Shown here piece by piece: positions 10,799 to 24,628 of a stretch of DNA of 64,000 nucleotides. The DNA comes from Pelagibacterium flavum (GTDB lineage Bacteria; Pseudomonadota; Alphaproteobacteria; Rhizobiales; Devosiaceae). A program made the position numbers and the translations under genes. The stretch covers positions 2,473,001 through 2,537,000 of the forward strand of contig NZ_CP107716.1 of the NCBI RefSeq assembly GCF_025854335.1, in the 5' to 3' direction. The notes beneath the pieces were generated by a model, which was given only the letters and a program-made list of their open reading frames with translations, ran no database searches and was not told the DNA's origin. Each line of letters begins with the position of its first letter. The stretch's first letter is position 1.

Positions 10799-11215
10799 TC
10801 AGGCCAGCTGGTCGGCCGTGGAATAATGCAGCACCACCGGGATGACGGCAGCCTTCAGGCTGGCCGCGCCCTCGACCGGCAGATCGACCGGGCGCGGCGC
10901 TTCCGCCTCGACCCAGTCGCAGAGGCCGCCGAGTGTGCGGTCGATCGAGAGCGCAGCCCCGATGCTGGCGATCAGCGTGTCGAAGTCAGCGTCACGGTCG
11001 GTGCCCTGCACGACCGCCTCGATCTCGGCGCGGTGCTGATAGTGGTAGGCGAGCGGCGACAGCGTCACTTCGGGCTCTCCCGGCTCGCCATCGCGCAGGA
11101 TCAGCAAGCCATTGGTCGGTACGCGCTCGGGCAGGACGTCGCCGCGCAGGGCGGTGGCAGGCAGCGCCGAGAGCCGCGTGTGCAGCGCGGCGAGGATGGT
11201 TTCGCGAGGGGTCAT
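10799..11215 (-). CDS. Phage tail terminator-like protein (DUF3168-like)
   Basis: 138 aa. N-terminus MTPRETILAALHTRLSALP, middle VTLSPLAYHYQHRAEIEAVV; typical of small proteins that cap the tail tube and meet the head connector. ATG 11215 overlaps the merR stop (ATGA), so at present its translation is coupled to merR. In related phages it would follow the DUF6441 gene directly; here the mer genes stand between them. Confidence 0.75.
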   Translation of the reverse strand: MTPRETILAALHTRLSALPATALRGDVLPERVPTNGLLILRDGEPGEPEVTLSPLAYHYQHRAEIEAVVQGTDRDADFDTLIASIGAALSIDRTLGGLCDWVEAEAPRPVDLPVEGAASLKAAVIPVVLHYSTADQLA

Positions 11216-11637
11216 GGATTGGCGGACCTGGAAATTGCGTCGAGCACCGGACAGTCCGGAACCTCGGCGCCCGAACACTTGGATGCGGTCTCGGTGAGGA
11301 CGATTTCGATGCGCCTGAGATCCGCGATCCTCGCGCGGACATCGGCAAGGTGGCGCTCGGTCCGCTCCTTGACCTCTGCGCAAGTTGGCGCGGCACCGTC
11401 TTCGAGCCCCATGAATCCGCGGATGTCCTCCATCGAGAACCCGAGTTCGCGCGCGCGCAGGATGAAGCGCAGGCGCGTGGCATGCACAGAGGAGTAGATG
11501 CGGTAGCCTGCGCCCGTCCTGGGCGGGTCGGGCAGCAGGCCAGTCTTCTCGTAATAGCGAATCGTCTCGATGTTGCAGTCGGTCGTCCGAGCTAGGTCTC
11601 CGCGTGTAAGGCCGCTCTCGCTCTCGTGATCGGTCAT
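11212..11637 (-). CDS. merR: MerR-family metal-responsive regulator (mercury type)
   Basis: 141 aa. Winged HTH at residues 10-45 (CNIETIRYYEKTGLLPDPPR), dimer helix, then metal ligands: Cys in TCAEVKER, and two more in KCSGAEVPDC. Three Cys in these positions are what MerR uses to bind Hg(II). Divergent from merA, with a dyad promoter between them. It represses and, with Hg(II), activates by twisting the promoter. Its stop overlaps the start of a phage tail gene, which is unusual. Confidence 0.85.
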   Translation of the reverse strand: MTDHESESGLTRGDLARTTDCNIETIRYYEKTGLLPDPPRTGAGYRIYSSVHATRLRFILRARELGFSMEDIRGFMGLEDGAAPTCAEVKERTERHLADVRARIADLRRIEIVLTETASKCSGAEVPDCPVLDAISRSANP

Positions 11638-11651
11638 CGGCCAGTTTCCCC

Positions 11652-11682
11652 TTGAGCCTGTAGTTGCTACAGACCTTACACC
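11652..11682 (+). promoter_or_regulatory. MerR-type promoter/operator upstream of merA
   Basis: TTGAGC (11652-11657), 19-bp spacer, TACACC (11677-11682). The spacer holds the perfect dyad CTGTAG-TTG-CTACAG (11658-11672). An overlong 19-bp spacer with a central dyad is the hallmark of MerR-family targets. The dyad differs from the classic Tn501 mer operator. About 185 bp lie between this site and merA, in which I recognise no gene such as merT or merP. Confidence 0.65.
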
Positions 11683-11868
11683 TCTCATCAATAGCAGACG
11701 AGAGGTACGCGACGGGGAGCTTGCAGACGACCGAACGGACAGCCCGACCGCGGATCGCCCGGCCCGAAAGGGATGGCTCGCAGCGGGTGCCTGTTGGGCG
11801 CCTTTTACAGGTCTAGGCTGTCTGACGGCGGCAGCGGCGACTGAACACTCGAACGGACGGATGACCCC

Positions 11869-13290
11869 ATGAAAGACGACTGCGCCCCGAAAGACGATTT
11901 CGACCTTGCCGTGATCGGTGCCGGCTCGGCCGGGTTCTCGGCCGCGATCACCGCCGCCGAAGGAGGCAAGCGGATTGCCCTGATCGGTCATGGCACCATC
12001 GGCGGGACCTGCGTGAACGTGGGCTGCGTGCCGTCCAAGACGATGATCCGTGCCGCCGAGGCTGTCCACGGCGCGCAGTCGGCGCATCGGTTCCCGGGCC
12101 TCAGGGGCGAGGCGCAGGTCGCCGACTGGGCGGCGCTGGTCGCGGCCAAGGACGATCTCGTCTCGACGCTGCGCCAGAAGAAATATGCCGACCTGCTGCC
12201 GGGCTACGATGGCGTGACTTATCTCGACGAGGGTCCGGCACGTCTGGTCGAAGGCGGCGTCGAAATCGGCGGGCGCAAGATCACAGCCCCCAAGGTCATC
12301 GTCGCCACCGGCGGGCGGCCCGCCGTGCCCGACATCCCCGGTATCCTGGACGTCCCGACGCTCGACAGCACGTCGCTCCTGGAGCTGGAGCGGCTGCCCG
12401 AGAGCCTGATTCTCCTCGGCGGCGGCTATATCGGCGTGGAACTCGCGCAAATGATGGCGCGGATGAGCACACGCGTCACCATCGTCTGCCGCTCGCGCCT
12501 GCTGCCGCGGGCAGAGCCGGAGGTCTCTAGGGCACTCGCCGAGGTCTTGCGTGCCGAAGGTCTCACGATCCTCGACGGCGTGACCTATGACGCCGCGCGG
12601 CGCGACGGCGACCGCGCCGTTCTGACGGTAACGGTTGACGGCAACGTACGCGATCTGACCGCGGATCACCTTGTCCTGACCACCGGGCGCGCGCCCAACA
12701 CCGAAGGGCTGGGTCTGGCCGAAATGGGCATCGAGACCGATCGACGCGGCGCGATCAAGGTTGGCGACGACATGGCCACGACACGCCCCGGCATCTATGC
12801 GGCGGGCGATGTGACGGACCGGGACCAGTTCGTCTACATGGCCGCCTATGGCGCCAAGCTCGCGTCCCGCAACGCCGTGCTGGGCGGGGCCGAGCGCTAC
12901 GACAACGCCGCGATGCCCTGGGTGGTGTTCACCGATCCGCAGGTCGCCGGCGTCGGCCTGACCGAGGCGCAGGCGCGCGCGGCGGGTCATGACGTCAAGA
13001 CCAGCGTGCTGACCCTCGACAACGTACCCCGCGCGCTCGCCGCCCGCGACACGCGCGGCCTGATCAAGCTGGTCGCGGACCGGGCGACCGACCGCCTGCT
13101 GGGCGGCGTGATCATGGCGCCGGAGGGCGCCGACAGTGTCCAGACGCTTGTCCTGGCGTTGAAGTTCGGCATGACGACAAAGGCGCTCGGCGAGACGATC
13201 TTCCCCTATCTCACCACGGTCGAGGGCCTGAAGCTCGCCGCGCAGACCTTCGACAAGGATGTCGCGAAGCTGTCGTGCTGCGCGGGGTGA
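11869..13290 (+). CDS. merA: Mercuric reductase MerA (no N-terminal HMA domain)
   Basis: 473 aa FAD-disulfide reductase that reduces Hg(II) to Hg(0) with NADPH. FAD motif VIGAGSAGFSAA (about residue 15), redox pair in GTCVNVGCVPSK, NAD(P) motif GGGYIGVELAQ, and the second FAD block GIYAAGDV. The C-terminus ends LSCCAG: the vicinal Cys pair that hands Hg(II) to the active site, which separates MerA from lipoamide dehydrogenase. There is no N-terminal HMA domain, as in many alphaproteobacterial MerA. No transporter genes are nearby. Confidence 0.95.
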   Translation: MKDDCAPKDDFDLAVIGAGSAGFSAAITAAEGGKRIALIGHGTIGGTCVNVGCVPSKTMIRAAEAVHGAQSAHRFPGLRGEAQVADWAALVAAKDDLVSTLRQKKYADLLPGYDGVTYLDEGPARLVEGGVEIGGRKITAPKVIVATGGRPAVPDIPGILDVPTLDSTSLLELERLPESLILLGGGYIGVELAQMMARMSTRVTIVCRSRLLPRAEPEVSRALAEVLRAEGLTILDGVTYDAARRDGDRAVLTVTVDGNVRDLTADHLVLTTGRAPNTEGLGLAEMGIETDRRGAIKVGDDMATTRPGIYAAGDVTDRDQFVYMAAYGAKLASRNAVLGGAERYDNAAMPWVVFTDPQVAGVGLTEAQARAAGHDVKTSVLTLDNVPRALAARDTRGLIKLVADRATDRLLGGVIMAPEGADSVQTLVLALKFGMTTKALGETIFPYLTTVEGLKLAAQTFDKDVAKLSCCAG

Positions 13291-13340
13291 CCCGAGCCGT
13301 CGGTTTCGTGGCTGCCGAGCAAGATTGCGCATCGATGCGA

Positions 13341-13979
13341 TCACAACCTACCCTCCACCCAGTTCGCCACGATCAGCCCCGGCACGCCGTCCAATGCCCG
13401 GTCCGCATCCCGCGCCAGGTCCAGCCGCTTCGGCAGCTTCACCTGCGGCACCAGCAGGAAGATCGGCGCGGTGACCTTGCCGCGTCCGGTCTTCGAGCGC
13501 GACACTACCGCTTGGCCCTTCGTGTTCAGCCGGCTCTCAGCCACCAGCAGACTCGGGCCCGTCCGGCGATAGACGAACCGTAGCCGCAATCCCCGGCGTC
13601 GTTCCCATTCGCCGGGGGTGATCCGGCCGCCGCGCAGGGATTTGCCCGCGGCGGGCAGCGGGATCGCCAGCCAGAACCCGTTCTTCGAGCGGATCAGCGG
13701 GCCGGTGTCATGCGCACCGACGATGACCGGCGCCTTCGACCAGACCAGCGCCGCGGCGTCGAGGCTTTCGCCCGACCTCGGGAAGTTCTGGCTGCGGATC
13801 GAGTTGGCGAGCCGTGTGCCGAGCCCCGCGCCGGTGATCTGCAGCCGCCACGCCGACTTCAGCCCGGTCCCGGCCTCGCGCATGGCAGCCGTCACCGCGC
13901 GTTCGCCCGCCGCGACCTCGGCCGCCATCATCGCGACGATGTCGGGATCGATGTCGAGCTTCAGCTTCATGGCCGTCAT
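13341..13979 (-). CDS. Phage head-tail/minor tail protein (DUF6441)
   Basis: 212 aa from ATG 13979 (ATG 13970 is also possible). N-terminus KLKLDIDPDIVAMMAAEVAA, then AMREAGTGLKSAWRLQI, and near the end FLLVPQVKLPKRLDL: the DUF6441 pattern of phage tail-completion clusters, gp10-like by position. The start overlaps the end of an upstream frame (ATGA). Downstream come merA and merR, not the expected tail terminator. Confidence 0.75.
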   Translation of the reverse strand: MTAMKLKLDIDPDIVAMMAAEVAAGERAVTAAMREAGTGLKSAWRLQITGAGLGTRLANSIRSQNFPRSGESLDAAALVWSKAPVIVGAHDTGPLIRSKNGFWLAIPLPAAGKSLRGGRITPGEWERRRGLRLRFVYRRTGPSLLVAESRLNTKGQAVVSRSKTGRGKVTAPIFLLVPQVKLPKRLDLARDADRALDGVPGLIVANWVEGRL

Positions 13980-14017
13980 GCGGGCCTCAGATCGACGGTC
14001 CAGACCAGCCGCTCGCG
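13976..14017 (-). pseudogene. C-terminal tail of a truncated phage head-tail connector gene
   Basis: In the frame overlapping the DUF6441 start by four bases, about 13 residues RERLVWTVDLRPA can be read before the stop. This resembles the end of head-tail joining proteins. The sequence upstream is not phage but a DUF3489 fragment on the opposite strand, so the phage operon is cut at about 14017. Confidence 0.5.
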
Positions 14018-14374
14018 GTCGCGGACACCGACGCAGGGTTCGCCGCCATCGGCATCGAGACCGAGGACGCGAACACCGCGCCTGCGGGCGCGACGGATGC
14101 GCCGACCGAGGAGCCCGCGCCGGACACCCCCACTGAACCGAAGGCTGCGCCCAAGACGCGCACACCGCGCGAGGGAACGAAGCAGGCCACCCTGATCGCC
14201 ATGCTGCGCGCGCCAGAGGGCGCGACAATCGAGGAGATCATGGGCGCGACGGGCTGGCAGTCGCACACGGTGCGCGGCGCGATGGCCGGGGCGCTGAAGA
14301 AGAAGCTCGGGCTCGAAGTGACCTCGGAGAAGGTCGAGGGGCGCGGGCGGGTCTACAGCTTGCCGGGCAACTGA
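14018..14374 (+). pseudogene. DUF3489 protein, 5'-truncated
   Basis: The open frame has no start codon and joins phage sequence at the left. It keeps the linker (TDAGFAAIGIETEDA), an Ala/Pro-rich hinge, and the whole C-terminal DUF3489 winged-helix-like domain: REGTKQATLIAMLRAPEGAT, then GATGWQSHTVRGAMAGALKK and a VYSLPG end. Complete relatives begin about 70 residues earlier with another HTH-like domain. It marks a recombination junction. Confidence 0.7.
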
Positions 14375-15249: not shown

Positions 15250-15740
15250 CGCGTCGTTCATCATCGCAGTCCGCGCGGTCGATGTTCGGGGCTATCCAGG
15301 CGAACACGACGCGGTCATCGACCGCGAGACGTGGGATCGCGTCCACGCTATTCTGGAAGAAAGTCGTCGCAAGCGCGCCGCTTACACCCGTGCCGAGACG
15401 CCCGCGCTGCTGAAAGGACTGCTGTTCGGGCCGGATGGCGCGGCCTTCTCGCCTACAACCGCGCAGGTCCGACAGCACTCTGGTCAAGGCACTCGCCCGC
15501 GCGTTCCGGTGGAAGCGGATGCTGGAGTCGGGCGAGTACGCCACCATCGCGGAACTGGCCGAGCGCGAGGTGATTGCGCCCTCCTACATGACCCGCGTCC
15601 TGCGGCTCACGCTGCTCGCACCGGAAATCGTCGAGGCGATCCTGGACGGAAAGCAGGGGCCGGAGGTGACGCTGGTGCGGGTGCTCGAGCCGTTCCCACT
15701 GAGCTGGAGCGATCAAAAAGACACCTTCTCCGGTCGTTGA
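15250..15740 (+). pseudogene. Large serine recombinase, C-terminal fragments
   Basis: Two pieces in different frames. The first (about 15276-15440) reads YPGEHDAVIDRETWDRVHAI and ALLKGLLFGPDGAAFSPT, the recombinase domain of large serine recombinases. The second (about 15478-15740) reads LVKALARAFRWKRMLESGEY, then SYMTRVLRLTLLAPEIVEAI, the family C-terminal end. The zinc-ribbon region between them is deleted and the catalytic N-terminus is absent. Relic of an integrated element. Confidence 0.7.
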
Positions 15741-15787
15741 ACATCGCGCTTCTGACATCCTGCGCAAACGCTACTATTGCTTCGTTG

Positions 15788-15800
15788 GGCCAAATTGGCC
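15788..15800. promoter_or_regulatory. Palindrome upstream of phd, candidate operator
   Basis: GGCCAAATTGGCC is a perfect 6-1-6 palindrome 31 bp before the phd start. Phd/YefM antitoxins bind such short dyads to control their own operon. Function inferred from position. Confidence 0.45.
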
Positions 15801-15831
15801 AAAAGTGGCGAAGGAATAGGCGGGGAGTCGC

Positions 15832-16029
15832 ATGCAGACCCTGAGCGCGAAAGACGCGAAGTATGGCTTCGGACGGTTGATCGACCTCGCCCGCGCCGAG
15901 CCGGTGGCGGTGGCGAAACATGGGCGAACTGTCGTGGTGGTGATGGCAGTCGAAGAGTACGAGCGGTTGAAGGACATTGAACTGGGTCGCGAAGATAGCC
16001 GCCCAAGCACCAAAGGGACGGCAGAATGA
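15832..16029 (+). CDS. Phd/YefM-family antitoxin
   Basis: 65 aa with the family N-terminus SAKDAKYGFGRLIDLARAEP, then VAVAKHGRTVVVVMAVEEYE. Phd folds bind DNA and neutralise a Doc or RelE-type toxin through a C-terminal tail. The next frame begins at the stop (ATGATG), but it is a 41-aa ORF that resembles no toxin, and hsdR follows. The antitoxin may be an orphan or an expression regulator for the hsd operon. Confidence 0.8.
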   Translation: MQTLSAKDAKYGFGRLIDLARAEPVAVAKHGRTVVVVMAVEEYERLKDIELGREDSRPSTKGTAE

Positions 16030-16151
16030 TGGATCAAGCTACTTCCAGCCAGATCGCCTCCGACGCCCGCCTTACCAAGTACTCCCTCGGCTCGCGATTG
16101 CATTTCACGCCGGGGACTTGGACCCACCCAGCAAAGAAAAAGAACCGATGA
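16026..16151 (+). CDS. 41-aa ORF linking phd and hsdR
   Basis: Starts ATG 16026 inside the phd stop (ATGA) and ends TGA overlapping the hsdR ATG 16148 (ATGA). The chain of two four-base overlaps suggests translational coupling from phd to hsdR. Sequence: MMDQATSSQIASDARLTKYS, then a basic end THPAKKKNR. I recognise no family; it may be a remnant of the toxin gene or only a coupling leader. Confidence 0.4.
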   Translation: MMDQATSSQIASDARLTKYSLGSRLHFTPGTWTHPAKKKNR

Positions 16152-19100
16152 GCCCCGCGATGGCGACTACTAAACCCGAGCGCGATCTTGAAGATGCCCT
16201 CGTCACCAAGCTTCGGGACCTCAAGTACGAATACCGCCCCGATATCCGCGATCGCGCCACACTGGAGCGAAACTTCCGTGAGAAGTTCGAGACCCTGAAT
16301 CGGGTAACGCTGACCGATGGGGAATTTCAGCGGCTACTCGACGAGATCATCACGCCCGATGTCTTTACCGCCGCCCGCACCTTGCGCGAGCGCAATAGCT
16401 TCACCCGTGATGATGGGACGCCGCTCAACTACACGCTCGTCAACATCAAGGACTGGTGCAAGAACTCTTTCGAGGTGGTGAACCAGCTTCGCATCAACAC
16501 GGACAACAGCCATCATCGATACGATGTCATTCTGCTGATCAACGGCATCCCGGTCGTTCAGATCGAACTGAAGACCCTCGGCATAAGCCCGCGACGCGCC
16601 ATGGAGCAGATCGTCGAGTACAAAAACGACCCTGGAAACGGTTATACAAAGACGATCTTGTGCTTTCTTCAGTTGTTTATCGTTAGCAACCGGGACAGGA
16701 CATTCTACTTCGCGAACAACAATGCTCGCCACTTCGCCTTCAATGCCGAAGAGCGCTTTTTGCCGGTCTATGAGTTCGCCGATATCGACAACAAGAAGAT
16801 TGTCCATCTCGATAGCTTCGCCGAGTCCTTCCTCGTCAAGTGCACACTCGGCCAGACGATCAGCCGCTACATGGTTCTGATCGCAAGCGAGCAGAAGCTC
16901 CTGATAATGCGGCCGTATCAGGTCTACGCGGTGAAGGCGATTGTTGACTCGATCGCGCAAGACTGCGGCAATGGTTACATCTGGCACACCACCGGCAGCG
17001 GCAAGACGCTGACTTCCTTCAACGCGTCAACGCTGCTGAAGGACAATCCGGACATCGAGAAGTGTCTCTTCGTCGTGGACCGGAAGGATCTCGATCGACA
17101 GACGCGCGAGGAGTTCAACAAGTTCCAGGAAGGCTGCGTCGAGGAGAACACTAACACCTCCTCCCTTGTCCACCGTCTGCTTTCCGACGACTACGCCGAC
17201 AAGGTCATCGTATGCACGATCCAGAAGCTCGGCCTCGCGCTGGACGAAAATAGCAAGCGTAACAAGCAGCAGAAGAAGGATGGCAAGAAGAGCTTCAAGG
17301 AACAGCTGGAGCCCCTCCGTGAAAAGCGCATCGCCTTTATCTTCGACGAATGCCACCGGTCGCAGTTCGGCGAGAACCACAAGGCTATTAAGGAGTTCTT
17401 CCCGCGCGCCCAGCTCTTTGGTTTCACCGGAACTCCGATCTTCGATCAGAACGCCGCGCAGCAGAAGATCGAGGACACGCAGGCCAGCATGAAGACGACG
17501 GAAGACCTCTTCCAGCAGCGTCTTCACACCTACACAATCACGCATGCGATCGAGGACGGCAACGTCCTTCGCTTCCACGTTGACTATTACAAGCCGCAGG
17601 GCAAGACAGTGCCCAAGCCGGGCGAACCGCTGGCCAAGCGGGCGGTAATCGAGGCAATTCTCGCCAAGCACGACGCTGCTACCGGGCAGCGCCGGTTCAA
17701 CGCCCTGCTTGCCACGTCGTCGATTAATGATGCCATCGAGTATCACACCCTCTTCAAGACCATGCAGGCCGAGAAGTTGGCCGCTGATCCCGGCTTCCAA
17801 CCGCTGAACATCGCCTGCGTCTTCTCACCGCCCGCCGAGGGCAACGCGGACGTGAAGCAGATCCAGGAGGACCTGCCGCAGGAGAAAGAAGACAACGCTG
17901 TCGAGCCCGAAAAGAAAAAGGAAGCCCTGAAGGCAATCCTCGCCGACTATAACGCCAACTACGGCACCAACCATAAGATCGGTGAGTTCGACCTGTATTA
18001 TCAGGACGTGCAGAAGCGCATCAAAGACCAGCAATGGCCGGATGCCGACTTACGCAAGGCTTACCCCAACCGGCCGCACCACAAAATCGACATCACGATC
18101 GTCGTTGACATGCTGCTCACTGGCTTTGATTCGAAGTTCCTGAACACCCTCTACGTCGACAAAAACCTGAAGCATCACGGGCTGATCCAGGCTTTCTCGC
18201 GCACGAACCGGGTACTGAACGCGACCAAGCCGTATGGAAATATCCTCGACTTCCGCCAGCAGCAGGCGGCCGTCGATACCGCCATCGCCCTCTTCTCGGG
18301 CGAGGCTGCCGCCGAAAAGGCCCGTGAACTCTGGCTGGTGGATAAGGCGCCTGTGGTCATCCAGAAACTGGAAACCGCGGTGCAAAAGCTCGACACCTTC
18401 ATGAAGTCGCAGGGCCTCGAATGCGCCCCCGACGCGGTGCCCAACCTCAAGGGCGACGCGGCCCGCGCGGCGTTCGTCGAGCATTTCAAGGAGGTCCAGC
18501 GGCTCAAGACCCAGCTTGACCAGTACACAGACTTGACCCCGGAAAACGCCGCAGCGATCGAGCAGGTTCTTCCGCGCGACAACCTGGTTGGCTTCCGCGG
18601 CGCGTATCTGGAGACCGCCCAGCGGCTTCGGGCACAGCAGGGTAAGGTTGCCGACAAGCCGACGCAGGAAGCGGACCAACTCGATTTCGAGTTCGTCCTC
18701 TTTGCCTCGGCCGTGATCGACTATGACTACATCATGGGCCTGATCGCCCGCTATTCCGAGGCAACCCCCGGCAAGCAAAAGATGAGCCGCGAGGAGCTGA
18801 TCGGCCTGATCCAGTCCGACGCCAAGTTCATGGACGAGCGTGAGGACATCGCCGCGTACATCGCCACACTGAAGGCGGGTGAGGGTCTGAGCGAGAAGGC
18901 CATCCGCGACGGCTACAGCCGTTTCAAGGCCGAAAAGAACGCGGCGGAGCTGGCGGGCATCGCGGGCAAGCACGGGCTTGCGACCGAGGCGCTGCAAGGC
19001 TTTGTCGATACCATCCTGCAACGCATGATCTTCGACGGCGAGGCGCTGACCGATTTGATGGAACCCCTTGGCCTGAACTGGAAGGCGCGACGGGTGAAAG

Positions 19101-19189
19101 AGCTGGACCTCATGGCCGACCTGCTGCCGCTTCTGCTGAAGCGCGCTGGCGGCCGTGAAATCTCGGGGTTGAGCGCCTATGAGCAGTAA
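16148..19189 (+). CDS. hsdR: Type I restriction enzyme, R subunit
   Basis: About 1,013 aa. PD-(D/E)xK nuclease: D126 in RYDVILLINGIPVVQIELK with E140-x-K142. Motor: Walker A TTGSGKT (281-287), DECH box (400-403), FGFTGTPIF motif III, and late helicase motifs (DMLLTGFDSKF, then QAFSRTNR). HsdR with HsdM and HsdS forms the translocating nuclease. ATG 16148 overlaps the small ORF; the 3' end overlaps hsdS by 11 nt. It looks intact, but hsdS is interrupted, so restriction is probably off. Confidence 0.95.
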   Translation: MSPAMATTKPERDLEDALVTKLRDLKYEYRPDIRDRATLERNFREKFETLNRVTLTDGEFQRLLDEIITPDVFTAARTLRERNSFTRDDGTPLNYTLVNIKDWCKNSFEVVNQLRINTDNSHHRYDVILLINGIPVVQIELKTLGISPRRAMEQIVEYKNDPGNGYTKTILCFLQLFIVSNRDRTFYFANNNARHFAFNAEERFLPVYEFADIDNKKIVHLDSFAESFLVKCTLGQTISRYMVLIASEQKLLIMRPYQVYAVKAIVDSIAQDCGNGYIWHTTGSGKTLTSFNASTLLKDNPDIEKCLFVVDRKDLDRQTREEFNKFQEGCVEENTNTSSLVHRLLSDDYADKVIVCTIQKLGLALDENSKRNKQQKKDGKKSFKEQLEPLREKRIAFIFDECHRSQFGENHKAIKEFFPRAQLFGFTGTPIFDQNAAQQKIEDTQASMKTTEDLFQQRLHTYTITHAIEDGNVLRFHVDYYKPQGKTVPKPGEPLAKRAVIEAILAKHDAATGQRRFNALLATSSINDAIEYHTLFKTMQAEKLAADPGFQPLNIACVFSPPAEGNADVKQIQEDLPQEKEDNAVEPEKKKEALKAILADYNANYGTNHKIGEFDLYYQDVQKRIKDQQWPDADLRKAYPNRPHHKIDITIVVDMLLTGFDSKFLNTLYVDKNLKHHGLIQAFSRTNRVLNATKPYGNILDFRQQQAAVDTAIALFSGEAAAEKARELWLVDKAPVVIQKLETAVQKLDTFMKSQGLECAPDAVPNLKGDAARAAFVEHFKEVQRLKTQLDQYTDLTPENAAAIEQVLPRDNLVGFRGAYLETAQRLRAQQGKVADKPTQEADQLDFEFVLFASAVIDYDYIMGLIARYSEATPGKQKMSREELIGLIQSDAKFMDEREDIAAYIATLKAGEGLSEKAIRDGYSRFKAEKNAAELAGIAGKHGLATEALQGFVDTILQRMIFDGEALTDLMEPLGLNWKARRVKELDLMADLLPLLLKRAGGREISGLSAYEQ

Positions 19190-19258
19190 GGGGAAATCAT
19201 CTGCCGACACGGCCGATGGGGCTATGCTGGTGCCGAGGCTGCGGTTTCCGGAGTTTCA

Positions 19259-20189
19259 GAGCCCAACCCGAAAAGAGTTGAGCAGTTTCAGCAGGTTGTG
19301 ATTCAGTTCGGTTGCGAGACTGAACGGAGAACACAATGGCCTGGACCGAAACTGCCCGACACGAGTATGCGCGACGTGGGCGTCGTTATTCAAGCGATCT
19401 GACCGACCAGGAATGGGCGATCATCGCGCCCCTCATGCCGCCTGCGCGATCTATCGGTCGACCGAGGACCACGAATTTGCGGTCCGTGATGGATGCTGTG
19501 CTCTACATGGCCTCGAGCGGTTGCCAATGGAGCCTGCTGCCAGGAGAGTTTCCGCCACCATCGACGGTGCAGCGCTATTTCTATGACTGGCGTGACAGCG
19601 GTTTGCTCGCCATCATCAACCATCACCTGGTGATGATAGCCCGCGAGTGCGAAGGGCGTGAGGCTTCACCCTCGGCGGGCGTGATCGACAGCCAAAGTGT
19701 CAAGACCACCGAAAGCGGCGGGGTCCGGGGCTATGATGCAGGAAAGAAGATCAAGGGTCGCAAGCGCCATATCGTCACCGACACGCTGGGCTTAATGGTA
19801 GGGCTGGTCGTCCACAGTGCCGATGTCCAGGATCGGGACGGTGCTGCCACCGTGCTCCAATCGATCCGTTCGAGCTTTCCCTGGCTGCGTCATGTCTTCG
19901 CCGATGGTGGCTATGCTGGCCCCAAATTACGCGGTTCATTGGCCAAGATAGGCCGCTGGGATCTGCAAATCGTCAAACGCTCCGACACTGCCAAGGGGTT
20001 CGAGCTCTTACCGCGCCGCTGGGTCGTCGAGCGCACCTTTGCCTGGTTGGGACGCTGTCGGCGCTTGGCCAAAGACTGGGAAAGATCGGTCGCCAGCGCC
20101 CAGGCGTGGATCTTCATCGCACACATCCGAATCCTAACACGGCGGATCGCAAGGCACTGCAATTGCTCATAGAGTTTCGAGTCGGGCAC
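19259..20189 (+). mobile_element. IS5-family element (IS1031-like) inside hsdS
   Basis: 931 bp. Ends are GAGCCCAACCC (left) and, read inward from the right, GTGCCCGACTC; imperfect similarity continues to about 28 bp. It is flanked by TCA on both sides (19256-19258 and 20190-20192), a TNA-type 3-bp target duplication. One transposase gene fills it. The perfect duplication suggests a recent insertion. Confidence 0.92.
19336..20172 (+). CDS. IS5-family transposase
   Basis: 278 aa. The N-terminal DUF4096-like domain (SSDLTDQEWAIIAPLMPPA) precedes a DDE domain: GVIDSQSVKT, FADGGYAGPK and RRWVVERTFAWLGRCRRL carry the Asp, Asp and Glu. ATG 19336 follows GGAGA. Same strand as hsdS. Intact. Confidence 0.94.
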   Translation: MAWTETARHEYARRGRRYSSDLTDQEWAIIAPLMPPARSIGRPRTTNLRSVMDAVLYMASSGCQWSLLPGEFPPPSTVQRYFYDWRDSGLLAIINHHLVMIARECEGREASPSAGVIDSQSVKTTESGGVRGYDAGKKIKGRKRHIVTDTLGLMVGLVVHSADVQDRDGAATVLQSIRSSFPWLRHVFADGGYAGPKLRGSLAKIGRWDLQIVKRSDTAKGFELLPRRWVVERTFAWLGRCRRLAKDWERSVASAQAWIFIAHIRILTRRIARHCNCS

Positions 20190-21398
20190 TCAGACTGCAA
20201 ATGGTTGGAAGGAGGTTTCGCTCCAGAAACTTGCTCGACCTGTTACTGATCGGGCCACAACCGGAGATGCCGACAACGTTCTAAGTCTTTCGGGGGAGCA
20301 CGGCCTTGTGCTGCAAAGCGATTATTTCGGAAAGAAGATCGCTGGTGACAGCACTGATCGCTATCTAAAGATTCGCAAAGACGACTTTGTCTACAATGAC
20401 CGGACGACCAAAGCGTCAAGCTTCGGAACGATCAAGCGGCTTTCCAACTATCCGAACGGAATCGTCTCACCCATTTATAAGTGCTTCCGGTTCGAACCTA
20501 ACGAGAACCCGGATTTCTGGGAATGGTACTTCGAGTCGGGGAGCCATAATCCAGCCTTGGGTGGGCTGGTCAACGAGGGTGCCCGAGCAGGCCGGTTCAA
20601 CATCTCCGTCACTCAGTTCTTGTCGACAAACGCTTGGCGGCCAGACGAGGCCGAACAAAAAAAAATCGCCGACTGTCTGGACTCGGCAGACGCGCTGATC
20701 GAGGCGCAGGGGCGAAAGGTGGAGGCGCTGAAGGCCCACAAGAAGGGCCTGATGCAGCAACTTTTCCCCCAGGAAGGCGAAACCCAACCCCGCCTCCGCT
20801 TCCCAGAGTTCGAGGGGTCGGGGGAGTGGGATGAGAAGTCGATCGGCGACTTTGGTCAGGTGGTTACCGGAAGCACACCCAGCACAGCCGATCCCACCCT
20901 ATACGGAGGCGGCATTCCGTTCGTGTCGCCAGCCGATATCTCCGAGCTACGATATGTCGATGAAACCAAAACCACTCTGACCGCAGCCGGATTCGAGAAA
21001 ACTCGCCCAATCAAGGCACGCAGCGTTCTTTTCGTAAGCATCGGTTCCACGATTGGGAAGATCGCGCAGAACGTTCGGCATTGCGCGACGAACCAGCAAA
21101 TCAATGCGGTCATTCCTAACGCAAAGCACTCGGATGGCTTTGTCTATTTCGCCTTGTCAAATGCTTCTGAGCGCATCGCGTTGCTTGCCGGACGGCAGGC
21201 CGTTCCAATCATCAATAAATCACTCTTCTCTTCGGTTCGGTTACTAGTCCCAAGTCTTCCTGAACAAAAACGCATCGCCGACTGCCTCACCTCCCTCGAT
21301 GATCTCATCGCCGCAGAGAGCCAAAAGCTCGGCACCCTCAAGACCCACAAGAAGGGGCTGATGCAACAGCTTTTCCCCTCGGTCGTAGAGGATGACGC

Positions 21399-22520
21399 AT
21401 GAATCATTCTGAAATCGCCACCACCCTCCGCGATGCCAAAGAAAAGATCGTCCTGCTCTATGCATTCAACGCTACTGGCAAGACCCGACTGTCGGTTTCA
21501 TACAAAGACGCGACCAAAAACAAAAAGGGTGCTCACACAGGTGTTTACTATAACGCCTATAGCGAGGACCTGTTCGTCTGGCAGAACGACCCCGAGAACG
21601 ACGGAACGCCTATTCAGCTAGATATCCGCAAGTGCAGTCTGAACAAGTTCCACAGCGCACTGACCGAAGACAACGTCCGCGACAAACTGAACCGCTTCAA
21701 GCCAGGCTATCGTTTTGAGTTCATTTACTACGATGACCCACAGGATGGCATCCAAGCAGTGTCGTTCTTCCAGGAAGTGCCAGATCCCAATGACGCCAAC
21801 AATGTCGCAAAAGTCACCTACAAGATTTCGCGTGGCGAAGAGCGAATTTTTATCTGGTGCTTCTTTCTCGCACTGTTCGAAGTTGATGGATGGGCAGACC
21901 AGCAAGCAGCCCACTTCTTCATCGATGATCCTGTCTCAAGTCTGGATGATCATAACATTTTCATTACTGCGTCGACGCTATTCGATCTAATCGAGGATCA
22001 CTTCGAGAAGCGCAAGATCATCATCACCACGCATCACCTCGGATTTTTCGCGATCCTTGCCGACTGGCTCAAGAAGGGTGAGAAGGCCGACAAGTTCAAG
22101 AAGCATTCGAAGGTCGGCATTCTCAGTGCCAAGAATGGTGAGCTGGCGTTGGAGAGTCCGAACAACGACGTTCTCCTTTATCACTTGCGCCTCTTGCAAC
22201 TACTTGAACAGGCGTGGGCAGCGAACGAGGTGCGGGCGTTCCACTTTGCGCTGCTGCGTCAAGTTCTGGAGAATGTGGCGTCCTTCCTTGGGGTGGGCCA
22301 GTTTGGATATGTACTGATGCAAATCGGGATCGATGATCCCGACGATACCGCACGCGTGATCAATACGCTCTCCCACAAAAAGGTATATTACTTCGAAAGT
22401 GAAATATTAGAGAAGGACTCTCGGGATCTTTTTGACAAGATTTTTCTTGGCCTAAAGAGCAAGTACAATTTTGTTCTTCATGCTTCAGAACCGGCCCCAG
22501 CTCCCGCGCCCGCCCCTTAG
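21399..22520 (+). CDS. PrrC/RloC-like ATPase with candidate anticodon-nuclease (HEPN) domain
   Basis: 373 aa, start overlapping the hsdS stop (ATGA). ABC-type ATPase: Walker A LYAFNATGKTRLS (residues 20-32), signature-like ISRGEERIFIW (143-153), Walker B FFIDDPVSSLDD (173-184), H-loop TTHHLGF. The C-terminal helical domain has R287, E291 (LRQVLEN) and H326, and R319-x6-H326 (RVINTLSH). PrrC uses an Arg-Glu-His triad with R-x3-E and a later His, and its nuclease is classed as HEPN. PrrC is also encoded inside a type I hsd locus. The C-terminus ends in an Ala-Pro repeat. Nuclease function is inference from motifs and context; no catalytic residue appears missing. Confidence 0.75.
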   Translation: MNHSEIATTLRDAKEKIVLLYAFNATGKTRLSVSYKDATKNKKGAHTGVYYNAYSEDLFVWQNDPENDGTPIQLDIRKCSLNKFHSALTEDNVRDKLNRFKPGYRFEFIYYDDPQDGIQAVSFFQEVPDPNDANNVAKVTYKISRGEERIFIWCFFLALFEVDGWADQQAAHFFIDDPVSSLDDHNIFITASTLFDLIEDHFEKRKIIITTHHLGFFAILADWLKKGEKADKFKKHSKVGILSAKNGELALESPNNDVLLYHLRLLQLLEQAWAANEVRAFHFALLRQVLENVASFLGVGQFGYVLMQIGIDDPDDTARVINTLSHKKVYYFESEILEKDSRDLFDKIFLGLKSKYNFVLHASEPAPAPAPAP

Positions 22521-22534
22521 AAAGCACCCGTACA

Positions 22535-24157
22535 ATGAACGACCACAACCAAAAGCAGCTGGGCAAAACGCTCTGGAATATCGCCGACCAGCTGCGCGGC
22601 GCGATGAATGCGGACGACTTCCGCGATTACATGCTCTCTTTCCTCTTCCTGCGCTACCTTTCTGACAATTACGAGATGGCTGCGAAGAAGGAGCTCGGGC
22701 GCGACTACCCCGATCCCAACGCGATCGGCAATGGCGGGCGCTCGCCCCTCTCTGTTTGGTATGCGGAGAACCCCGATGATGTGGTTGCTTTTGAAAAGCA
22801 GATGCGTCTCAAGGCGCACTACGTCATCAAGCCGGAACACCTCTGGACCAGCATCGCCCATATGGCGCGCACCCAGGACGACGAACTGTTGAACACCCTG
22901 CAGACGGGCTTCAAATATATCGAAAACGAGTCGTTCCAGAGCACTTTCGGTGGGCTGTTCTCGGAGATCAATCTCGGCTCTGACAAGCTGGGCCGGACAT
23001 ACGCTGATCGCAACGCCAAACTCTGCGCCATCATCACCGAAATCGCCAAAGGGCTTGCCGACTTCTCCTCGGATGTGGATGCGCTTGGCGACGCCTACGA
23101 ATATCTGATCGGCCAATTCGCCGCCGGTTCGGGCAAGAAGGCGGGAGAGTTCTATACCCCGCAGCAGGTGTCAGACATCCTATCCGCGATCGTTACGCTA
23201 GACAGCCAGGAGCCCGCAACCGGGAAGAAGGAGCGGCTCGCCAGTGTGCTCGACTTCGCATGCGGTTCAGGCTCGCTGCTTCTGAACGTGCGCAAGCGCA
23301 TGGGTCCGCACGGTATCGGCAGAATCTACGGGCAAGAAAAGAACATCACCACTTACAACCTCGCCCGCATGAACATGCTGTTGCACGGCGTGAAGGACAC
23401 GGAGTTCGAAATCTACCACGGCGACACGCTGAACAATGACTGGGACATTCTGCGCGAGTTGAATCCGGCCAAGAAGCCCTCCTTCGATGCCATCGTGGCC
23501 AACCCGCCCTTCAGCTTGCGCTGGGAGCCGACCGAGGCGATGGGCGATGATGTGCGGTTCAAGAACTATGGGCTAGCGCCCAAGTCTGCCGCCGACTTCG
23601 CATTCCTGCTGCACGGGTTCCATTACCTGAAGGATGAAGGCGTGATGGCCATCATCCTGCCCCACGGGGTGCTGTTCAGAGGTGGGGCGGAAGAGCGCAT
23701 CCGAACCAAGCTGCTGAAGGATGGTCATATCGATACAGTGATCGGCCTGCCTGCGAACCTTTTCTATTCGACGGGCATTCCGGTCTGCATCCTTGTTTTG
23801 AAGAAGTGCAAGAAGCCCGACGACGTGCTCTTCATCAACGCCGCCGAGCACTTCGCGAAGGGCAAGCGCCAGAACCAGCTCACCGATGATCACATCGGCA
23901 AGATCATCGAAACCTACCAGTTCCGCAAGGAGGAGGACCGCTATTCCAAGCGCGTGAGCATGGAGCGCATTGCTGAGGAGGGCTATAATCTCAACATCTC
24001 GCGTTACATCAGCACGGCGTTGGCTGAGGAGCAGCTAGACCTAGTCGCTACGCAAAAGTTGTTGAGTGAAATCGAAGGACAGATCCGGGGATCAACTGAG
24101 AGGCACAACGCGTACTTAAGGGAACTCGGGCTTTCCCCTCTACCGGGGCAGGAGTAA
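22535..24157 (+). CDS. hsdM: Type I restriction-modification DNA methyltransferase, M subunit
   Basis: 540 aa. N-terminal HsdM domain (WNIADQLRGAMNADDFRDYM), then the N6-adenine methylase: SAM motif I DFACGSG (240-246) and catalytic NPPF (323-326), preceded by AGEFYTPQQVSDIL. It is 14 bp after the PrrC-like gene, so the operon order is hsdR, hsdS, prrC-like, hsdM. Without intact HsdS it should not methylate the original target unless the 20308 internal product works. Confidence 0.95.
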   Translation: MNDHNQKQLGKTLWNIADQLRGAMNADDFRDYMLSFLFLRYLSDNYEMAAKKELGRDYPDPNAIGNGGRSPLSVWYAENPDDVVAFEKQMRLKAHYVIKPEHLWTSIAHMARTQDDELLNTLQTGFKYIENESFQSTFGGLFSEINLGSDKLGRTYADRNAKLCAIITEIAKGLADFSSDVDALGDAYEYLIGQFAAGSGKKAGEFYTPQQVSDILSAIVTLDSQEPATGKKERLASVLDFACGSGSLLLNVRKRMGPHGIGRIYGQEKNITTYNLARMNMLLHGVKDTEFEIYHGDTLNNDWDILRELNPAKKPSFDAIVANPPFSLRWEPTEAMGDDVRFKNYGLAPKSAADFAFLLHGFHYLKDEGVMAIILPHGVLFRGGAEERIRTKLLKDGHIDTVIGLPANLFYSTGIPVCILVLKKCKKPDDVLFINAAEHFAKGKRQNQLTDDHIGKIIETYQFRKEEDRYSKRVSMERIAEEGYNLNISRYISTALAEEQLDLVATQKLLSEIEGQIRGSTERHNAYLRELGLSPLPGQE

Positions 24158-24628
24158 CCCGAGCTCGGCAAAAGTTCGATTTCTGTTCCATGCGGTAAAA
24201 TGCCCCTCACGTCGAAGTGCCGGGACATGCCACCATAATTTTTTAAAAATATCAGATGACTACGAGAAATTCACCAAATCGACGCAGGCAACAGGTCCGG
24301 AGAATATTTGCCCCGAGAGACCGCTTCCGGGCCACCTGGCACCGGGGCCAGTGTTCAGCCCCTTCCGCATAACCCTCGAATACAACGAGAAAATCCGGCC
24401 GCAGCCGGATCGGGAGAACGCTTTCGCAGGGCAAGTGGCGGAGGGAATGGACCTGTCGTCGAACCTTCTCTTCCTTTTCTCAACCGCAGACTGCTTGGAG
24501 TGATGCACGTGACAAGGGAGTTATCCAACTCCCGAGGAATGTGGAGGGACAACGGAGCCTTAAACGCATCCGAGCGATCCAAAACCCGTGGGGCACCGCT
24601 CCGTCGTAGATGCGCCGAATGCGACTGG
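24158..24628. other. Junction region with no intact gene
   Basis: About 470 bp between hsdM and the first recognisable hglS sequence. The frame upstream of hglS is open but not homologous to it. It contains a small hairpin (ATCCGGC-CGCA-GCCGGAT near 24395) and one copy of the 38-bp repeat (24433-24470). Confidence 0.5.
24433..24470 (+). repeat. 38-bp imperfect direct repeat, copy 1 (candidate att relic)
   Basis: Starts AAGTGGCGGAGGGAATGG and ends GAACCTTCTC. 32 of 38 bases match the copy at 57984-58021 in the same orientation. On the minus strand it ends CCTCCGCCA, reminiscent of a tRNA 3' end, though no tRNA fold is visible. Confidence 0.5.

Follow-up and report, generated by a model that had tools for sequence, protein, structure and literature searches.

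A gene that we name prrC, at 21399..22520 on the + strand of a 64,000-nucleotide stretch of the Pelagibacterium flavum genome (hereafter the window), lies among the genes of a type I restriction-modification (hsd) system. PrrC proteins are bacterial self-sacrifice enzymes that cut tRNA once a DNA-restriction enzyme has been disabled, and a dedicated profile, an active-site triad, type IC partners and the conservation of the locus all support the central claim that prrC encodes an anticodon nuclease of the PrrC type within a type I hsd operon. Our preferred reading, to which we give a probability of roughly 0.88, is that this PrrC-family anticodon nuclease was latent in an ancestral operon of the order hsdR, hsdS, prrC, hsdM (R-S-prrC-M), to be released by antirestriction, and that it is now probably little made. 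Within its family the gene is an ordinary case, and the family, the gene order and one tested system of this kind are already known; the window copy may be silent, or without restraint, after the splitting of a neighbouring restriction gene.

The gene is open throughout from an ATG start and encodes 373 amino acids. The PADLOC profile for PrrC (PDLC02360) matches residues 2-363 with an E-value of 5.2e-102 (profile positions 20-351 of 372), far above chance, and the next PADLOC models, PDC-S06 and LmuB, give only partial matches at 4.5e-13 or weaker. The initial annotation had suggested a PrrC/RloC-like protein and left the family of its C-terminus to a profile search; that C-terminus falls within the PrrC match and not in a non-nuclease family. 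The PrrC half of the suggestion is supported, by the triad, the type IC partners and the conserved locus as well, and the RloC half is rejected. RloC also joins an ABC ATPase to a C-terminal Arg-x3-Glu ... His anticodon nuclease (according to passages of PMC2610378), but it carries a zinc-hook/coiled-coil insert and seldom accompanies type I systems, whereas the 373-residue window protein has neither this insert nor any CxxC in its sequence; the longest helices in its model are of about 18 residues. In Pfam the only match is a partial one to AAA_13 (PF13166, 1e-14), and a search of the protein against the NCBIfam profiles gave none. Searching about 5.8 billion proteins yielded 7071 candidates, of which 4231 had E <= 0.001; among the 120 matches listed two (P0086 and P0090) carry the source name "anticodon nuclease", others being called "AAA family ATPase" or having no name. 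No solved structure was matched in the PDB by sequence, either with the protein itself or with a 58-row alignment. Foldseek and VIA structure searches with the whole model mainly probed the ATPase part. When the C-terminal domain was used in VIA, HEPN appeared in the title of four among the seven best rows, and the other three (Csm6', 7bxo and 5yep) we take to be HEPN-containing as well.

The protein consists of an ABC-type ATPase domain (about residues 1-250), a C-terminal nuclease domain (about 254-361) and a Pro/Ala-rich tail (362-373, window 22482-22517); many close relatives have such a tail, of varying length, and others are without one. The ABC-ATPase motifs occupy the N-terminal two thirds: a Walker A at residues 22-29 (AFNATGKT, with Ala in place of the first Gly, as in the E. 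coli protein discussed below), a signature-like SRGEE at 144-148, the Walker B/D-loop FFIDDPVSSLDD at 173-184, and H212. All the ATPase motifs noticed at the outset (Walker A, Walker B and H-loop) could therefore be located, and K28, T29, G146, D176, D177, P178 and H212 are identical in 86/86 aligned PrrC proteins. This alignment holds the proteins of 80 named genome contigs, two relatives (L007 and L008), three plasmids (L094-L096) and the window; the 80 are the best-scoring of 416 loci found with a PrrC pattern, which selects for an intact prrC (80/80 intact).

In the C-terminal domain, R287, E291 and H326 are found exactly where the initial annotation had placed an R-x3-E pair and a His, and all three are invariant in the 86 proteins. 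As the E. coli reference we used the 396-residue PrrC of an E. coli IncY plasmid (L095), whose R320, E324 and H356, and whose residues 284-294 (KYGDSNKSFSY, including D287), stand at the same positions as in the published E. coli PrrC (passages of PMC3014915; for the triad also PMC2610378). The window triad is in register with that of E. coli. The R-x6-H HEPN motif also claimed for this domain fared less well: its letters are there (R319-x6-H326), and the E. coli protein too has an Arg at this place (R349), but R319 is common to only 27/86 proteins. Though H326 is invariant, we do not accept R-x6-H as a signature conserved across the aligned set, where this part of the earlier case is weak; the triad stands. 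The R-x4-6-H usual in HEPN RNases such as HepT, Csm6 and their relatives is thus not conserved among these PrrC proteins. An Arg of the HEPN motif, of unspecified position, has been described as needed in PrrC (passages of PMC3710099).

The partners of prrC are identified consistently by Pfam, NCBIfam and PADLOC. The restriction subunit gene hsdR (15977..19189, + strand; ORF as listed, the true start being perhaps the ATG at 16148) matches EcoR124_C (PF12008, 8.6e-69), HSDR_N, SWI2_SNF2, TIGR00348 (3.4e-107) and, from residue 66, the PADLOC REase_I model. The modification subunit gene hsdM (22535..24157, + strand, 540 aa) matches PF02384 (2.6e-103), PF12161 (4.3e-23) and TIGR00497 (5.9e-116). 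We take the locus as type IC because of the EcoR124_C match of hsdR, the TIGR00497 match of hsdM and the Methylase_S match of hsdS. The stop of prrC lies 14 bases before the start of hsdM, and at the junction behind the proposed coupling to hsdS the prrC start and the hsdS stop share the bases ATGA (21399-21402). Overlap or close spacing is found in most of the 86 loci. The distance from hsdS stop to prrC start is -4 (ATGA or GTGA) in 48/86, a value favoured by our script, which chose the start nearest to it; another overlap is seen in seven, and 28 have a gap no longer than 20 bases. In all, 83/86 lie between -13 and +20, with hsdS far away in two and no hsdS scored in one.

The same gene order is common. 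Among the 80 named loci, 75 have R-S-prrC-M, four S-prrC-M and one prrC-M; the five without an upstream hsdR comprise four at the ends of contigs and one, L074 (7.5 kb of sequence), that is not so placed. A second set comprised 23 loci of sampled genomes (L007, L008, L097-L103 and L113-L126, with L009, L104-L112 and L127-L139 excluded, mostly as much longer ORFs or weak matches); in these, prrC is followed by hsdM in 12 and by hsdR in 10, and one has the order M-S-prrC with nothing scored behind it. Two arrangements are therefore common, and R-S-prrC-M is one of them. The order had been singled out at first as unlike prrABCD; this is correct with respect to E. coli, where it is M-S-prrC-R, but we reject the idea that it is unusual, and there is an experimental test of one example.

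In the window hsdS, as first noticed, is broken by an insertion sequence (IS) while prrC remains intact. A 5' stub (19179..19258, + strand, 26 whole codons), whose ATG overlaps the end of hsdR, ends in the left TCA (19256-19258) of a 3-bp target duplication; it is followed by an IS5-family element of 931 bp (19259..20189, + strand; borders from comparison of copies) with a transposase ORF (19336..20172, + strand, 278 aa; PF01609 4e-40, NF033580 1e-75), and then by the 3' piece of hsdS (20190..21402, + strand), which starts with the right TCA (20190-20192) and matches PF01420 (1.7e-24 at 173-344) and PADLOC Specificity_I (7.6e-84, profile 60-411 of 411). There are five copies of the element in the 3.93-Mb, single-contig host genome, the other four matching at 100% over 932-938 bp, and a 3-bp duplication flanks all five (for one, in L004, as read by eye). 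By coordinates, both hsdS pieces share one reading frame across the duplication, and the frames of hsdR, prrC and hsdM are uninterrupted, which makes the system appear whole up to a recent insertion. Since a recent insertion leaves little time for decay, an intact prrC does not point to selection, and what had been drawn from the pairing of a broken hsdS with an intact prrC is weak. A literature search at the level of titles and the openings of abstracts returned no report of an IS-split hsdS beside prrC.

Beyond the observed family membership, motifs, operon, conserved hsdS-prrC spacing and recent insertion, we infer from the family how the window protein would act, that is its nuclease activity, target, latency and trigger. 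In the ancestral operon PrrC would have been made by translation coupled to hsdS, and would have bound the type IC restriction enzyme and stayed latent. A phage antirestriction protein disabling the enzyme would alter the PrrC contact and switch the ATPase domains, whereupon the site of Arg287, Glu291 and His326 would cleave the anticodon loop of a tRNA, with tRNA-Lys UUU the likeliest target, and so halt translation and phage growth. In E. coli, PrrC is latent in the Hsd complex, is activated when an antirestriction factor disables that complex, and cleaves tRNA-Lys (passages of PMC3014915 and PMC3874165). The E. coli system (EcoprrI, prrABCD) shares with the window the ABC motifs, the Arg-x3-Glu and His triad, a type IC partner and a prrC directly behind hsdS, but differs in gene order, and its PrrC is only 33% identical. 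The plasmid from which we took the E. coli protein carries a complete M-S-prrC-R system (L095:5223-12237) with phage-type neighbours, including a terminase. Closer in order is PrrC170 of Klebsiella quasipneumoniae, with HsdR, HsdS, PrrC and HsdM in turn and likewise an ABC ATPase joined to a nuclease, which according to passages of PMC11555353 defends against T1 and T7; there, overexpression of PrrC by itself stops growth, and tRNA sequencing indicates tRNA-Lys as the target. As a stand-in, from the same species only, we used a K. quasipneumoniae plasmid locus (L171) with hsdS-prrC-hsdM and hsdR upstream, whose PrrC shares 35% identity with the window protein. This locus (L171:2931-6718), and by position the plasmid locus L094 (L094:2913-6697), on enterobacterial IncA and IncC plasmids, have two genes between hsdR and hsdS that the window lacks; in L171 these are a large AAA ATPase (annotated as TrlF family) and a Schlafen/AlbA_2 protein.

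As to the target, the E. coli tRNA-contact peptide TEKYGDSNKSFSY aligns with ESPN---NDVLLY in the window protein, and its Gly-Asp287-Ser is missing in 84/86 proteins, the window's included. The contact peptide is described as variable among PrrC proteins, and substrates may vary with it (passages of PMC3014915). A PrrC-family nuclease that cuts a tRNA other than tRNA-Lys(UUU), given an anticodon-loop contact region so unlike that of E. coli, is thus the alternative that survives best, though we think it rather unlikely. PrrC170, with the R-S-PrrC-M order and just 35% identity to the E. coli protein, has tRNA-Lys as its target all the same (passages of PMC11555353); the L094 protein, from a locus of the same order and 95% identical to L171, keeps one of the three Gly-Asp-Ser residues; and the host has one tRNA-Lys(UUU), with the anticodon loop CTTTTAA, and one tRNA-Lys(CUU), among the 30 tRNA loci that were scanned out of 46 matches. 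A strongly conserved block at residues 50-64 (YYNAYSEDLFVWQND) aligns with YYNAFTEDLFYWDND of the E. coli protein and is a likely candidate for the 15-residue PrrC box of the N-terminal domain.

The insertion suggests what the present state of the system may be. Restriction is probably dead because hsdS is split, and PrrC synthesis is probably low or absent, since translation of hsdS no longer reaches the prrC start. Core PrrC without Hsd proteins is moreover reported to be highly labile, with a half-life of <1 minute at 30 C, though active if induced alone (passages of PMC3014915). With the lost translation into ATGA and this lability, a silent orphan appears likelier than an unleashed toxin, and a guard without its keeper, as first imagined, is possible. 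It is unlikely that a truncated HsdS is made from an internal GTG at 20308 and, with HsdM and HsdR, holds PrrC latent as a partial keeper: the open frame from this GTG covers 364 aa, both "HKKGLMQQLFP" regions and the second target-recognition domain are retained in it, its end overlaps prrC in ATGA, and two related loci (L058 and L074) have an hsdS of about half length beside an intact prrC, but about 65 N-terminal residues would be lost (by coordinates, the 26 codons of the stub, one that is split and 38 preceding the GTG) and use of the GTG is a prediction. A promoter and terminator scan, limited to the sigma-70 consensus, gave nothing above shuffles (two sites found, equal to shuffles) and no + strand promoter-like site in 15700-24400. 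Slightly less probable again is that PrrC is still made despite the loss of hsdS, as a free-standing suicide nuclease or one held by HsdR/HsdM, in which case its target may also differ from tRNA-Lys. That the protein combines an AAA_13 ATPase with a C-terminal domain other than a nuclease, as the sole Pfam match and the empty NCBIfam result might suggest, is highly improbable given a PrrC model spanning nearly the whole protein, a triad invariant in 86/86 and the HEPN structures, titled or presumed, among the best C-domain rows.

Among related loci there are others with damaged or shortened partners. Away from contig ends, at least one hsd gene fails an 85% coverage test in 6/80 (L021, L024, L045, L056, L058 and L074), a count in which draft-assembly errors are possible, L045 is a 6.4-kb contig whose hsdR is perhaps end-cut, and the half-length hsdS of L058 and L074 may work. 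L039 passes this test with an in-frame stop in hsdM. In Cyanobium sp. ATX 6A2 (L024:5669-10004), hsdR has two in-frame stops (TAG and TAA) and hsdS one (TGA) with prrC intact, possibly a further case of PrrC outliving its partners. Two loci of the second set seem to have a damaged prrC, L116 with one TAG and L126 with an open frame of 181 aa.

Several related operons contain additional genes. A RhuM-family gene (PF13310, 5.7e-106) lies between prrC and hsdM at L016:11089-12096, and similar ORFs were recognised by eye in L021, L024, L026, L036 and L068; RhuM-like genes with PrrC have already been reported (passages of PMC3710099). Other R-S-prrC-M operons hold a YhcG/DUF1016 nuclease (L059:4653-5657, and by eye L063:8702-9688), a BRO-N protein (L041:3359-4111) or a PD-(D/E)XK protein (L069:8041-8487).

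In the host's genus, 0/11 genomes gave a PrrC match, and the named relatives with at least 66% identity span several phyla (e.g. Rhodobacter, Lysobacteraceae, Nitrospira, Cyanobium and Verrucomicrobia records), which fits horizontal transfer. A search of the host genome for the repair ligase RtcB found no match. The host has a second type I locus (L170:6186-13112; G000:C1:694185-701111) of the order M-S-x-R, all long ORFs, whose subunits resemble those of the type IC system only distantly (best phmmer bits 151 for HsdM, 18 for HsdS and 122 for HsdR), making it unlikely on sequence grounds that it supplies a keeper in trans. Upstream of the hsd operon (window 11212-14228) are, by eye, a mercuric reductase-like ORF (11869-13290) with a MerR-like ORF on the opposite strand, and a DUF6441 gene (13341-14228, - strand).

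As the family member itself is ordinary, the value of the locus is a mild one, that of a natural experiment. Were PrrC made despite the split hsdS, this would be a natural case of a guard outliving its keeper, and would test which Hsd subunit suffices for latency; if prrC is expressed, survival of the strain would mean that full-length HsdS is dispensable for it. If prrC is silent, the frequent overlap or close spacing of hsdS and prrC would look like a built-in safety, by which loss of the keeper also halts production of the guard.
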